From Phenylobacterium sp. (lineage in GTDB: Bacteria > Pseudomonadota > Alphaproteobacteria > Caulobacterales > Caulobacteraceae), in assembly GCF_013911965.1 (NCBI RefSeq), contig NZ_JACESE010000017.1, positions 1 to 64,000 of the forward strand: a stretch of DNA of 64,000 nt. The letters are read 5' to 3'. How positions within the stretch are numbered: the first letter of the stretch is position 1; each line of letters begins with the position of its first letter. Below, one piece after another: positions 1,079 to 5,760 of this stretch. Made by a program: the position numbers and the translations under genes. The notes beneath the pieces are model-generated. The model was given only the letters and a program-made list of their open reading frames with translations, searched no databases and had not been told where the DNA came from.

Positions 1079-1312
1079 GTGACCTTTGAAGAGCTGCGTG
1101 TGCTGATGGCCGACGTGTTCGAGTGTGACCCGGCGCAGATCACGCCCGACGCCACGCCCAACACCGTCGTGGCCTGGGACTCGCTCCGCCTCTTGGACCT
1201 GCTGCTGGCGATCGAGCAGGAGGCCAATGTCGAGATCTCGCCCGAGCGCATCGAGGAGATGATGAGCGTCCCGGCGATCCTGGCCATCGTCAACGAAGCG
1301 AAAGCCGCCTGA
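1079..1312 (+). CDS. acyl carrier protein
   Basis: A discrete acyl carrier protein of 77 aa. The phosphopantetheine attachment motif is DSL (in VAWDSLRLLDLL), so the Ser would carry the prosthetic arm; the flanking four-helix pattern is typical. GTG 1079 is chosen because a GGGGGAGAG site sits about 6 bases upstream; an in-frame TTG at 1064 overlaps that site. It heads a tight + strand set with a methyltransferase, an FkbH-like protein and an SGNH-like protein. In known systems (FK506/ansamitocin-type extender units) FkbH loads a glyceryl group onto a dedicated ACP, so this is probably that carrier and not the fatty-acid ACP; this is inference from context. Confidence 0.9.
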   Translation: MTFEELRVLMADVFECDPAQITPDATPNTVVAWDSLRLLDLLLAIEQEANVEISPERIEEMMSVPAILAIVNEAKAA

Positions 1313-1335
1313 GCGGTTGTGACGCGACGGGTGCG

Positions 1336-2265
1336 ATGAAAACGGTGGGCCGCGAACAACTCGACCGGGTGGTCCAGGGCGTCCTGAGACAATGGCCCGA
1401 ACACGCCAAGTTTCTGGAGCAGAGCCTGGCCGGCTATTCGGCCGATGAGCTCGCCCTGCTGGATGGGCTGGCCGGCCGCGTCCTGCGCCTGATGGGCGAC
1501 GAGGCGGGCGACTACTATGCCAGCTACCGTTGGATGTGCGGCGAGATCAACAAGGAGACCTACTTCTTCAAGAAGCACGGGCGCTACCGCCTCGCGACTT
1601 TCGAAGAGGCCGACCGGGAAGTCTATTCCAACGGTCCCTTCATGAAGAAGTATGTGGAGGGCATCCTCGCCTCTCAGGTGCTGTGGAAGAACCACAGCTC
1701 CGCCTTTCTCTATTTCCGGCAGGACTTCCTGCCGCGCCTGCCTGAGGGCTTCCGCTATCTCGAGGTGGGACCGGGCCACGGCCTCTTCCTGTCCATGGCG
1801 GCTGAGGATCCTCGCTGCGCCCGCGCCGTCGCCTGGGACGTCAGCGAGGAGAGCCTGCGCCAGACGCGTGCGGCCATCGCGGCCATGGGCGTCGAGGCGC
1901 GCGTCGAACTCGACCGTCAGGACATTCACGCGCCGACCCGCGCGCCCGAAACCGACGGGACCTTCGACGGCGTCGCGCTTTGCGAAGTGCTGGAGCATCT
2001 GGAAGAGCCGCGGGAGGCGCTGGCTTCCCTGGGCGCCTTCCTGGCGCCGGAGGGGCTGCTCTATGTCAACGTGCCGCTGAACAGCCCGGCCCCTGACCAC
2101 ATCTTCCTTCTGCGGGACGAGGGCGAGGTGCGCGACCTGTTCGACGCCGCCGGGCTGGAGATTGTCGACCTGAAGCTCGTCCCCATGACCGGCTACGACC
2201 TGGCGCGCGCCCAGGCCCAGAACCTCACCGTCTCCTGCTTCGTTCTCGCCCGGCGGGGCCGGTAG
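1336..2265 (+). CDS. class I SAM-dependent methyltransferase
   Basis: Rossmann-fold methyltransferase of 309 aa. Motif I is YLEVGPGHGLF near residue 140; an acidic residue in AWDVSEESLRQTRAA probably binds the SAM ribose; motif IV region is VALCEVLEHLEEP, and LYVNVPLNSP follows. The first 130 residues are mostly helical and have no clear parallel in small-molecule methyltransferases; they could recognise the carrier protein or its cargo. The gene lies 23 bases after the ACP gene and 19 bases before the FkbH-like gene, so it should be in the same transcript. Expected role (inference): methylating an ACP-bound or glycan-bound glyceryl-type group. The substrate cannot be read from sequence. Confidence 0.85.
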   Translation: MKTVGREQLDRVVQGVLRQWPEHAKFLEQSLAGYSADELALLDGLAGRVLRLMGDEAGDYYASYRWMCGEINKETYFFKKHGRYRLATFEEADREVYSNGPFMKKYVEGILASQVLWKNHSSAFLYFRQDFLPRLPEGFRYLEVGPGHGLFLSMAAEDPRCARAVAWDVSEESLRQTRAAIAAMGVEARVELDRQDIHAPTRAPETDGTFDGVALCEVLEHLEEPREALASLGAFLAPEGLLYVNVPLNSPAPDHIFLLRDEGEVRDLFDAAGLEIVDLKLVPMTGYDLARAQAQNLTVSCFVLARRGR

Positions 2266-2284
2266 GGCGCCAGGGCAGGACGCC

Positions 2285-4180
2285 ATGTCGGACATCGCCG
2301 CACATCCTGGCGAGACGGACCGCGACGCCATCGACCGGCTGCTGGACGCCGGCGACGCCTACGGCGCCCGTCTCGCGGCCCGCCGTTATTGGGCGTCCAG
2401 CCCCAACGCCTCGGCGGCCCGGTTCCTGAAGGCCCGCTACGGCCGCCTGTGGCCCGAGCCCGCGGCGGAGCCCTTCCGCCTGGCCGTCCTGCGCAGCTTC
2501 ACGCTCGAACCCGTCCTGCCCCTGCTTGAGGCCGAGGCCCTGCTGGCTGGACGCCGCCTGGAGACCTGGATCGGCGAGTTCAACGCCTATGGCCAGGAGA
2601 TCCTCGATCCCGCCAGCGGCCTCTACGCCCATCGACCCGACGCGGTGATCCTGGCGGTCCAGACCCGCGACATCGCGCCGAGCCTCTGGCGCGACTTCGA
2701 CATGATGGAGGAGGCGGAGGCCCGAGCTGCGGCCGACGAGGCTGCGCGGCTATTGATCGACCTGCTGGAGGCGCTGCGCGCCCGCACGCCGGCGACCCTT
2801 GTCGTCCATGGCCTGGAGAAGCCCCTTCACCCGTCCGAGGGACTGCTGGGCGTCCGGAAGACCTTGAGCCAGGACGAGGCGATCGAAACCGCAAACCACC
2901 TGGTCCGCCGCTGGTGCGCCGACCAGGCGGGCGTCGTCTTCCTGGACTACGACCGCCTGCAGGCGCGCCACGGCCGCGCGGCGTTCTTGAGCGAGACCAA
3001 GTGGGCGGCCGCCCGGCTGCCCCTCAGCGCTCCGGCGCTGGGTTGGCTGGCGGCGGCCTGGTGGCGTCATCTCGCCCCCGTCGCCCTGCCGCCGGCCAAG
3101 GTTCTGGTGCTGGACCTGGACAACACCCTCTGGGGCGGCGTCCTGGGCGAGGATGGACCTGACGGCGTGCGCCTGGGCGACGAGCCGCCCGGCGTCTTCT
3201 TCAAGGCCTTCCAGCGCGCGGTCCTCGAAGTGTCGCGCCGGGGCGTGCTTCTGGCCGTGGCCAGCAAGAACAATCCGGACGAGGCGCTGGCCATGATCGA
3301 CCAGCACCCGCACATGCTGATCCGCAGCCGGCACCTGGCGGCGGTGCAGATCGGCTGGAAGACCAAGGCCGAGGGCCTCATCGCCATGGCCGGCGAACTC
3401 AACCTCGGCCTCGACAGCTTCATCTTCGTCGACGACAGCCCCTTCGAATGCGAGGGCGTGGCGCGGGCGTTGCCGCAGGTGGAGGTGCTTGCCCTTCCTT
3501 CCGACCCCGCCGACTATGTGGCCGCGCTGAACGGCGTGTCCCGGCTCGAACGCCACGCGCTCACCGAAGAGGACGGGGCCCGCAGCCGCTACTATGCGGA
3601 CGACCGCCAGCGGCGCGATCTCCAGGCCCAAGCCACGTCGCTGGAGGCCTTTCTCGCCTCGCTCGCCATTGAGGTCGAGGCCGCGCCGGTGGACGCCGCC
3701 ACGCTGGCGCGCGCCGCCCAGCTGACCCAGAAGACGAACCAGCTCAACACCACCACCCGCCGCTATTCCGAGGCCGAGCTGGCCGCCCATCTGCAGCGTC
3801 CGGACGCGATCGCGCTCAGCCTTCGCGCGGCCGACCGGTTCGGCGACAACGGCATTGTGGGCCTCGCCGTCGCCACCCTGGCGGGCGCCGCCTGTGAGAT
3901 CGACGTGCTTCTGCTCAGCTGCCGCGTCATCGGTCGCCGGATCGAGACCGCCCTGTTGGCGGCGCTCGCCCAAGCCGCACGGGCCCGCGGCGCCGAGACG
4001 CTGCGGGGCTGGTACCGCCCCACCGCCCGCAACGCCCCCGCCCGCGACATCTTCCGCGACGCCGGTTTCGACTTGGCGGAGACTGCGCCCGAGGGCGACC
4101 TTTGGGGCTTCCCCCTCAAGCGCGCTATCCAAGTCCCCGAATGGATCGTTCTGCGCAACCTCGCGACGGCGGACTCATGA
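2285..4180 (+). CDS. FkbH-like HAD-superfamily protein
   Basis: A full-length FkbH-type protein (631 aa). Three parts are visible: an N-terminal SGNH-like/partner domain containing the family pattern FNAYGQEILDPASGLYAHRPDAV cut here as FNAYGQEILDP...PDAV; a HAD phosphatase domain with the nucleophile motif LDLDNTLWGG near residue 280, VASKNN, and FVDDSPFECEGV near 385; and a C-terminal GNAT-like domain (RFGDNGIVGLA near 520, GRRIETALL). In characterised members FkbH takes 1,3-bisphosphoglycerate, dephosphorylates it and places the glyceryl group on an ACP thiol. With an ACP gene two positions upstream this assignment is strong for the family, less certain for the exact acyl group. It overlaps the next gene by ATGA. 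Confidence 0.9.
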   Translation: MSDIAAHPGETDRDAIDRLLDAGDAYGARLAARRYWASSPNASAARFLKARYGRLWPEPAAEPFRLAVLRSFTLEPVLPLLEAEALLAGRRLETWIGEFNAYGQEILDPASGLYAHRPDAVILAVQTRDIAPSLWRDFDMMEEAEARAAADEAARLLIDLLEALRARTPATLVVHGLEKPLHPSEGLLGVRKTLSQDEAIETANHLVRRWCADQAGVVFLDYDRLQARHGRAAFLSETKWAAARLPLSAPALGWLAAAWWRHLAPVALPPAKVLVLDLDNTLWGGVLGEDGPDGVRLGDEPPGVFFKAFQRAVLEVSRRGVLLAVASKNNPDEALAMIDQHPHMLIRSRHLAAVQIGWKTKAEGLIAMAGELNLGLDSFIFVDDSPFECEGVARALPQVEVLALPSDPADYVAALNGVSRLERHALTEEDGARSRYYADDRQRRDLQAQATSLEAFLASLAIEVEAAPVDAATLARAAQLTQKTNQLNTTTRRYSEAELAAHLQRPDAIALSLRAADRFGDNGIVGLAVATLAGAACEIDVLLLSCRVIGRRIETALLAALAQAARARGAETLRGWYRPTARNAPARDIFRDAGFDLAETAPEGDLWGFPLKRAIQVPEWIVLRNLATADS

Positions 4181-5760
4181 CCCTGCTGTCTGCGGCCTCG
4201 CCCCTGGCGAGCTATCAGGCCGGACGGGCCGACGAGGCCCTAGTCCTGGCGGAGCAGGTCCTGGCGCAGGATCCATGGGCGGCCGAGGCGCATCTCTGCC
4301 GGGCGCTCATCGCCATACGCCGCGATTCCATTCCCGAGCTCGCCGAAGCCGCGCGCGCCTGCCTCGCCGCGCGGTCAGGCCTCTGGTTCCTGGAGCGCGT
4401 GCGCGCCGATTTCCAGCGCATGGGCGTGCCGGGTCTGCGACGCGAAATGGCCCTGCACCTCGGCTCGATCCTGCGCTCGGGCCTCGGTCCGCTCGGCCCC
4501 GTGCTCAAGGCCGAACAGCGTCGCGGCGATCCCGCCCAGATCAATGTGGTGGGCACGAGCTATGTGCGCAGCTTCGGCGGTAACGCGGCCTTCTTCCCGT
4601 TGTTCATCGGCATGGGCCCCAGCACCTTGCTTCTGACCGAGGAGACCAGCGCCGCGGTGCGGCGCAAGTTCCAGGAGAACCTGAAGCGGGTGGACCCGCG
4701 TCGGGACACCGTTCTCGTCCTGAACGGCGATGTCTATTACCACGCCACCAACCTGCTCGGCCTGCGCGACCCGGCCGACACGGCCCCCACCGCGGCGGAT
4801 CTGGCCCTCATGGAGACGGTCGCCGCCCGTCACCGCCCGATCCTGGAGGACGCCTGCAAGCTGATCGAGGGGCGGGCCATGCTGCTGTGCAGCACGCCGA
4901 CCTACAGCCCCTTGATGGACGCCCTTTCCGCACACCTCAATCCGCGGCTGCGCGAGGTCTGCGAGGCCGCCGGCGTGACGTTCCTCGACTGGTGGGACCA
5001 TCTGGCCGATCCGCAGACCCAGCATCTGCGCGCCGAATACAGCGCCAACGCCTATCCTCAGGATGTCCACTTCTCGCTCGCCACGACCGAGCTCTTCATG
5101 CGGCTGCTCAAGGCCGAGGGCGTGCTCCCGGAAGCGGCCGCGGCGGCGGCCGACTTCGAATGGACGCACGTCTTCGAATGCCAGATCGATCCCGGCGAAC
5201 GCACGCGAATCTGGTGCGAACCAGGGGTGTCGCCCAACAACGCCATCCACTCCCACAAGATCGCCGCATCTCACCTTGGCCAGCGTGTGAGCGACCTCGT
5301 CAGCTGTCTCGCGGCGCTCAGCCCCGGGCAGACCTTCGCGATGGTGAACGTCCGTGACGCCTTCCTGCCGGTCACGATCCCCGCCGCGCTTCATTCCGGC
5401 GTGTTGGCTCTGACCGACACGGCGGCGAACCTGCGGGTCGGGCAGTCGGTTCTGGACTTCTACGGCCGCACCGACGTGCGCCTTCAGGTCCTCGATGAAG
5501 ACAGCCTGGCCGCCGTGGATGGGCAGCGGTTCACCAACGTGGTTGTGGAAATACACCCCGACACCGCCGAGGCCGACGAAGCGCGCGCCAACGCCTTCCT
5601 GCGCCGGATCGGGGGCTGCGACTGCGTCGTCGTCGCCAGCCCCTTCGAGGCGCGCTTGTCCAATCTCGACCTGCAGGGCAAGACCCCCAACGTCTCCAAG
5701 AACGCCAATCGGCACCTGCCGGAGGTCTGGCGCGACTACGCGATAGTCGTCGCCCGCTGA
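4177..5760 (+). CDS. SGNH-like protein with MTase-like C-terminal domain
   Basis: A 527-aa protein that I recognise only in parts. Residues 1-60 are helical and TPR-like. Residues about 120-300 resemble an SGNH/GDSL hydrolase: VVGTSYVRSFGGNA as the nucleophile-Ser block, VLNGDVYYHATN as a third block, and YPQDVHFS as the terminal Asp/His block. Residues about 330-527 alternate short strands and helices (VLALTDTAANLRVG, NVVVEIHPDT, DCVVVASPFEA) like a degenerate Rossmann/methyltransferase fold without a clear SAM glycine loop. The start ATG at 4177 overlaps the FkbH stop (ATGA), so translation is probably coupled. Known SGNH proteins in polysaccharide loci transfer or remove acyl groups; transfer of the ACP-bound group to a glycan is a reasonable but unproven role. 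Confidence 0.65.
   Translation: MTLLSAASPLASYQAGRADEALVLAEQVLAQDPWAAEAHLCRALIAIRRDSIPELAEAARACLAARSGLWFLERVRADFQRMGVPGLRREMALHLGSILRSGLGPLGPVLKAEQRRGDPAQINVVGTSYVRSFGGNAAFFPLFIGMGPSTLLLTEETSAAVRRKFQENLKRVDPRRDTVLVLNGDVYYHATNLLGLRDPADTAPTAADLALMETVAARHRPILEDACKLIEGRAMLLCSTPTYSPLMDALSAHLNPRLREVCEAAGVTFLDWWDHLADPQTQHLRAEYSANAYPQDVHFSLATTELFMRLLKAEGVLPEAAAAAADFEWTHVFECQIDPGERTRIWCEPGVSPNNAIHSHKIAASHLGQRVSDLVSCLAALSPGQTFAMVNVRDAFLPVTIPAALHSGVLALTDTAANLRVGQSVLDFYGRTDVRLQVLDEDSLAAVDGQRFTNVVVEIHPDTAEADEARANAFLRRIGGCDCVVVASPFEARLSNLDLQGKTPNVSKNANRHLPEVWRDYAIVVAR

Follow-up and report, generated by a model that had tools for sequence, protein, structure and literature searches.

Genes for an acyl carrier protein (ACP), a methyltransferase and an FkbH-type protein form a trio that is not new: it recurs, and it has published parallels. 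We describe here a compact version in a stretch of 64,000 nucleotides from Phenylobacterium sp. (positions 1 to 64,000 of contig NZ_JACESE010000017.1; this whole stretch is called the window below), in which the trio is followed by a fourth gene. The new element of the set is the product of that gene, an unusual three-part protein with tetratricopeptide repeats (TPR), a weakly matching SGNH part and a class I methyltransferase fold. The first-pass annotation of the window held that no system of exactly this composition had been described; the literature that we found does not contradict that statement, but the statement overlooks the recurrent trio.

One parallel comes from Campylobacter jejuni NCTC 11168, where, according to the available part of the report, the flagellin is decorated with pseudaminic acid in a di-O-methylglyceroyl form, for which Cj1295 is needed (PMC3068675). 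The accessible portions of other papers identify Cj1299 as AcpP2, an ACP named for the O-linked glycosylation locus (PMC3749442), Cj1300 as a methyltransferase (PMC2764114), and Cj1301 and Cj1302 of the same locus as "epimerase" and fkbH, respectively (PMC7099621). The available text of PMC3068675 makes no mention of Cj1299, Cj1300, Cj1302 or an acyl carrier, and the literature found held no paper that links Cj1299-Cj1302 to the glyceroyl group or that tests these genes. We infer that the four genes may nonetheless be tied to the flagellin glyceroyl group. Judged by gene labels, the locus shares the ACP, methyltransferase and FkbH gene types with the window, and a methylated glyceroyl group is found there on the flagellin sugar; it differs in having an "epimerase" gene and in that the published product gene is Cj1295. 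The "epimerase" is probably a VOC protein: the VOC proteins of two alphaproteobacterial sets match methylmalonyl-CoA epimerase, though below the cut-off, and this match fits the Cj1301 label. We know of no TPR-SGNH-methyltransferase protein in the C. jejuni locus.

A second parallel is provided by the aeruginosin-type peptides suomilide and varlaxin, for which the available text proposes a loading module (AerB) of O-methyltransferase (OMT), FkbH and peptidyl carrier protein (PCP) domains that leads to 2-O-methylglycerate (PMC10143770). The suomilides contain a 2-O-methylglycerate residue, with FkbH unnamed in the accessible part of that report (PMC10157211). Compared by description, the OMT-FkbH-PCP-ST module resembles the window set in its proposed chemistry, namely the loading of a carrier by FkbH together with a methyltransferase; it is unlike the window set in that its components are domains of one nonribosomal peptide synthetase, the fate is a peptide, and no SGNH or TPR protein is named in the text available. 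The methoxymalonyl-ACP operon (fkbG-K, mad11-15) has FkbH, ACP and O-methyltransferase as in the window, but its two dehydrogenases, which are proposed for the pathway in the part of the source at hand (PMC7489565), and its polyketide synthase (PKS) are not in the window set. A methoxymalonyl building block was considered and set aside, as there is no dehydrogenase among the four window genes or in the fifth gene of the relative L050 (see below); for the four genes, this lack argues for a different fate. The building block of tetronate glycerate utilisation was likewise rejected, with no FabH-like ring-forming enzyme among the same five genes. PKS-linked use was rejected as well, since none of the six large open reading frames (ORFs) scanned in the window contains a PKS domain (PKS genes were not sought in the rest of the genome). 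The earlier remark that no PKS is present and that the product has some other destination thus agrees with these scans, and a non-polyketide fate is likely.

All four genes lie on the + strand, in an order confirmed from the ORF list and the DNA. The ACP gene (1079-1312, GTG start, 77 aa) is followed after 23 bases by the gene for the stand-alone methyltransferase, a class I S-adenosylmethionine (SAM)-dependent enzyme of an FkbH-associated family (1336-2265, 309 aa), and after a further 19 bases by the gene for the FkbH-type glyceryl-ACP synthase (2285-4180, 631 aa). The fourth gene (4177-5760, ATG start, 527 aa) begins at the end of FkbH, its start sharing with the FkbH stop a 4-base ATGA overlap read from the sequence (4177-4180, + strand). 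The longest forms offered by the ORF tool start at TTG 1064 for the ACP and, for the fourth gene, at TTG 4102 inside FkbH. The arrangement is just as first described, with four adjacent + strand genes joined by gaps of 19-23 bases or an ATGA overlap, and this operon-like spacing and order are best explained by an operon for cytosolic acyl modification.

The identities of the first three products, as originally proposed (a dedicated ACP, a SAM methyltransferase and a full FkbH protein), are borne out by family scores. The ACP reaches 26.5 bits against PF00550 (cut-off 20.8), and its AWDSL stretch has the phosphopantetheine carrier Ser in the DSL motif. The FkbH protein scores 305.4 bits against TIGR01686, well over the cut-off of 146.65, while Pfam FkbH_N, at 23.6 bits, falls just under its cut-off of 27; the only strong match in the PDB is 3slr, Bacteroides BF1531. 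It contains the haloacid dehalogenase (HAD) motif DLDNTLWGG and a conserved Cys in SCRVIGR. In an alignment of eight members, DLDNTxWGG and SCRV are present in all eight and SCRVxGR in seven, and the catalytic motifs are retained in all four cassette members. The methyltransferase is above the cut-offs of Methyltransf_23, Methyltransf_12 and Methyltransf_11; it reaches no NCBIfam cut-off, its PDB matches are generic only, and its L(E/D)(V/I)GPGHG and N(S/A)P(A/S)xDH stretches are conserved in ten aligned members. Searches of PHROGs gave no match for FkbH or the fourth protein and only weak matches to generic methyltransferase families for the stand-alone enzyme. That a dedicated ACP and a full FkbH imply glyceryl-ACP is supported by these sequences, and formation of glyceryl-ACP by FkbH on the cassette ACP, for which homology speaks well, is likely.

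The fourth protein had been called SGNH-like, a label that is incomplete because it leaves out the methyltransferase fold at the C-terminal end. Its layout consists of N-terminal TPR at about residues 8-82, an SGNH-like middle at about 115-320, and a C-terminal domain at about 346-527, which in the structure model has an alternating Rossmann-like arrangement of the class I SAM methyltransferase type. The SGNH match itself is weak: Lipase_GDSL_2 (PF13472) gives 21.9 bits against a cut-off of 32.9, and the homologues L050 (18.9) and L121 (23.1) also fall below it; TPR_19 in the window protein is under its own cut-off (22.8 against 25). S128 (in GTS) and the pair D296-x-H298 are conserved in all four cassette members and in L121, and the Ser and His are lost in L122; in spite of the sub-cut-off score, the protein may still work like an SGNH hydrolase. 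The PDB sequence search returned one chance-level match, and with a profile of the protein the hits were TPR proteins and methyltransferases under the threshold. The 50 VIA-align matches listed include no SGNH fold, a result made uninformative by the poorly modelled SGNH core. Hydropathy revealed no hydrophobic segment for export, which supports a cytosolic site, and a role as an AlgJ/AlgX-like periplasmic partner was dismissed when a profile comparison with hypothetical proteins of Tistrella and Paroceanicella gave no match.

The gene set is an accessory, patchily distributed cassette. With the window genome included, FkbH was found in 14 of the 60 relatives searched (and in 0 of 14 control genomes) and the fourth protein in three. 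When an alignment was scanned against genome_contigs, in which each of 84,980 species is represented by one genome, three loci came up: contigs of G019 (also L021 and L051) and G006 (also L020 and L052), and L050 from a Phenylobacterium metagenome-assembled genome (MAG). This count is an underestimate, because the scan used two strict peptide patterns and the window's own record may be missing. L050 has five codirectional genes, for ACP, methyltransferase, alpha/beta hydrolase, FkbH and the fourth protein; identities to the window are 78% for the ACP, 73% for the methyltransferase, 58% for FkbH and 61% for the fourth protein. G019 and G006 have ACP, alpha/beta hydrolase, FkbH and fourth gene with no methyltransferase adjacent, and in G006 (L052) frame breaks split the hydrolase and the fourth gene. 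The ACP gene comes first in all of these loci. With both methyltransferase and hydrolase in L050, the hydrolase alone in G019 and G006, and the methyltransferase alone in the window, the cassette exists in at least three forms, the window's among them; it consists of the known trio, the unusual fourth protein and an optional fifth gene. The idea that the set would be conserved in related genomes holds in part: the window alone showed exactly these four genes and close variants are rare, but the genes stay together where they are found. The four cassette FkbH proteins form one clade with support of 100/96 (in a tree that lacks G025, locus L031, and Paroceanicella, locus L053, for which the gene caller or filter gave no sequence), and this monophyly together with the recurring gene order argues that the cassette is more than a chance assembly. 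Its copies lie in differing gene neighbourhoods by eye, with L051 stopping at its contig end. An empty-site test with the downstream neighbour was uninformative, matching in 3 of 30 genomes, namely the window's own and two weak cases.

Several features of the other copies deserve mention in their own right. In G019, FkbH and the fourth gene read as a single frame of 995 aa (L021:6846-9830); we do not claim a real fusion, because a run of eight C precedes the second ATG and an assembly slip is possible. Also in G019, two genes divergent from the cassette (L021:3659-5717, - strand) have no Pfam or NCBIfam match, and the one of 404 aa looks by eye like a GT-B glycosyltransferase. Linked glycosyltransferases were rejected, in that this pair is without family matches and the larger gene, the only one searched, was unmatched in the other three cassette genomes. 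In L050, overlapping frames that resemble by eye the relic of an IS5-type transposase (L050:3767-4578, - strand) lie between a queD-like gene and the ACP gene, and may mark the arrival of the cassette.

Relatives of the stand-alone methyltransferase were sought more widely, with matches in 9 of 289 genomes of the class at an E value of 1e-20 and in 15 of 398 genomes of the phylum (the window included in each). Stretches of 7.5 to 20 kb around the gene were then searched by tblastn in the 22 other genomes, where G092 and G318, close copies from one genus, are counted as two. FkbH lies near the methyltransferase in 14 of the 22 and is missing from the stretch in the other 8. Of the FkbH-positive loci, 12 also hold an ACP and 10 hold an MBOAT acyltransferase, although the ACP, VOC and MBOAT counts lean upward because some query proteins come from these same loci. 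Among relatives with at least 36% identity, FkbH is present for 12 of 14; the exceptions are G481, where the contig ends 82 bases away, and G112, where none was found. Among examples from other Pseudomonadota, the Paroceanicella plasmid pD4M1C carries ACP, FkbH, methyltransferase and VOC, and in Tistrella pTM1 (G318) FkbH, methyltransferase, ACP and MBOAT stand side by side; G009, of the same genus, has the ACP, FkbH and methyltransferase trio in a locus of exopolysaccharide-like type, judged by eye. The pD4M1C and pTM1 loci are like the window in their adjacent FkbH and ACP and a methyltransferase that is 41-42% identical, and unlike it in carrying VOC or MBOAT and in having no window-type fourth protein by tblastn; the Tistrella FkbH also falls outside the cassette clade. 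The tblastn search gave no match to a window-type fourth gene in any of the 22 stretches.

A profile of the fourth protein matched in 23 of 385 genomes of the class, but of those listed, leaving the window aside, only the matches in G084 and G785 extend far past the TPR part. The G084 copy, at a contig end, keeps Ser, Asp and His. FkbH was not found in G785, G084 or G112, a negative to be taken with caution, as the search, like the other FkbH search, also gave no match in 14 controls. In G785 the divergent homologue has as neighbours two TylF-type methyltransferases, a TPR-glycosyltransferase 41 (GT41) protein and an alpha/beta hydrolase that shares 35% identity with the L050 one, and this neighbourhood points to glycan chemistry. 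The whole cluster (L122:5260-12746, - strand), which also holds an unknown protein of 380 aa, resembles a protein-glycan methylation locus.

From the observed identities, order and operon-like spacing of the genes, their conserved catalytic residues and the recurrence of the set, we propose a cytosolic pathway in which (O-methyl)glyceryl-ACP would be made and then moved to an acceptor, plausibly a glycan. FkbH would dephosphorylate 1,3-bisphosphoglycerate at its HAD site and load the D-glyceryl group onto the phosphopantetheine of the ACP, a step strongly indicated by the protein families; the FkbH score over the cut-off, its DLDNTxWGG motif and SCRV Cys, and the carrier Ser of the ACP all support it. 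The stand-alone methyltransferase would next O-methylate the ACP-bound glyceryl group, as the families indicate with moderate strength, and a second methyl may come from the methyltransferase-like domain of the fourth protein. The regular company of FkbH, mostly with an ACP, around relatives of this methyltransferase and the precedents of a proposed methylglyceryl carrier and of methylated glyceroyl on flagellin support this account; methylation of the building block, which had been suggested from the start, is likely in the window and L050, if less assured than the loading step. As a guess for the last step, the TPR and SGNH parts of the fourth protein might recognise the acceptor, and the protein would then transfer the (O-methyl)glyceryl group to it from the ACP. 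This acceptor would be cytosolic, with a sugar nucleotide or a protein-bound glycan of the flagellin type as the most likely candidates. In the relatives, the alpha/beta hydrolase that replaces or accompanies the methyltransferase could aid transfer or proofread. The chain as a whole falls somewhat short of an even chance, its transfer step being offered as the most likely course and not as a finding; taken by itself, the guess that the fourth protein passes the group to a glycan in the cytosol is possible though on the unlikely side.

Several observations weigh against this account. The SGNH assignment lies under the Pfam cut-off and the model has pLDDT below 50 around S128 and D296/H298, so that the SGNH part is not firmly shown. 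Motif I of the C-terminal domain, in the expected place, reads VNVRDAFLP and has no GxGxG, and the fold alone is no sign of methyltransferase activity. The G785 copy lacking Ser and His, in a genome where FkbH was not found, argues that FkbH is not a constant partner of the fourth protein, and the missing methyltransferase beside the set in L051 and L052 argues that methylation is not obligatory. The set is not flanked by glycan genes in the window, nor, as judged by eye, in L050. Flagellin and GT41 are present in all four cassette genomes, any of which could have a flagellin-glycan acceptor, and NeuB is present in three, where the acceptor could be a nonulosonic acid; the absence of a NeuB match in the genome of L050, which is of unstated completeness, means that a pseudaminic or legionaminic acceptor is not shown to be general. 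These figures carry little weight, because they come from cassette genomes alone and Caulobacter vibrioides, a control genome, has flagellin, GT41 and NeuB. By eye, a CDP-sugar-like cluster with a TPR-GT41 gene occurs in all four cassette genomes (L131, L133, L134, L136); the GT41 loci are unlinked to the cassette and so prove nothing for the acceptor.

The acceptor might instead be an envelope polysaccharide or lipid, of the kind suggested for the loci with FkbH, ACP, methyltransferase and MBOAT, served by an unlinked membrane acyltransferase, with the fourth protein merely maturing or editing the acyl-ACP. The MBOAT genes at 10 of the 14 FkbH-positive loci, the adjoining quartet of Tistrella pTM1 and the exopolysaccharide-like setting of the G009 trio (by eye) favour this explanation, but tblastn found no MBOAT near the set in L050, L020 or L021, or anywhere in the window (unlinked MBOAT genes elsewhere were not searched), and we consider it unlikely. 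The same MBOAT acyltransferases, frequent in related sets, speak against another rival, in which the product is a diffusible small molecule, an O-methylglyceryl ester or amide that serves as a signal or is a minor metabolite. There, FkbH would load the ACP, the methyltransferase would methylate, and the SGNH protein or the alpha/beta hydrolase would free the product from the carrier or place it on a small alcohol or amine. Such a product would suit an accessory set that stands alone, without recognised glycan neighbours in the window or L050, and that has two hydrolase-type proteins in its fullest form; however, the set includes no exporter, regulator or condensing enzyme, and a thioesterase would not need TPR and methyltransferase-like domains, so that this explanation seems quite improbable.

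As a third rival, the set might be an acquired island that is neutral or in decay and has a product for which there is no more use. Patchiness (3 of 60 relatives), loss of the methyltransferase or the hydrolase, and the frame breaks in L052 would all fit decay, but L052 and L051 are MAG contigs in which frame breaks may be assembly errors, the FkbH motifs and the Ser, Asp and His of the fourth protein are kept in all four cassette members, and the four window frames are open, with GC at third codon positions of 0.87-0.90, within the 0.83-0.96 of the other large window ORFs (on the lower side). Decay is very improbable.

The window begins at base 1 of its contig (C9), so sequence further upstream is not visible. 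Upstream of the set is an OmpA-family gene (77-685), and downstream are genes for DUF6692, DUF305, cytochrome c, DUF2189 and a solute-binding protein; neither the hydrolase nor VOC has a match anywhere in the window. Overall GC of the cassette hardly differs from that of the surrounding stretch in the window (0.69 against 0.70) and in L051 (0.64 against 0.63). It is lower than the surroundings in two relatives, L020:4246-8766 (0.50 against 0.58, computed on L052, the same contig) and L050:4807-10274 (0.62 against 0.67).

The core chemistry of the cassette has precedents, and it probably consists of charging with glycerate, methylation and hand-over, most likely to a sugar chain. A bolder proposal, decidedly unlikely as it stands, sees in the fourth protein a cytosolic acyltransferase or editor of a new type, which would take glyceryl from the FkbH-charged ACP, complete its O-methylation and set it on a protein- or nucleotide-bound sugar, so that a glycolytic intermediate decorates a glycoprotein of Caulobacterales. 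If the proposed pathway is true, a compact, variable gene set, which could be rebuilt from four or five purified proteins, would tie a glycolytic intermediate to the decoration of the cell surface or the flagellum. The cassette would then offer a simple biochemical model for the FkbH genes of glycan loci, including that of C. jejuni, for which the product chemistry is known and the makers are untested in the literature found.

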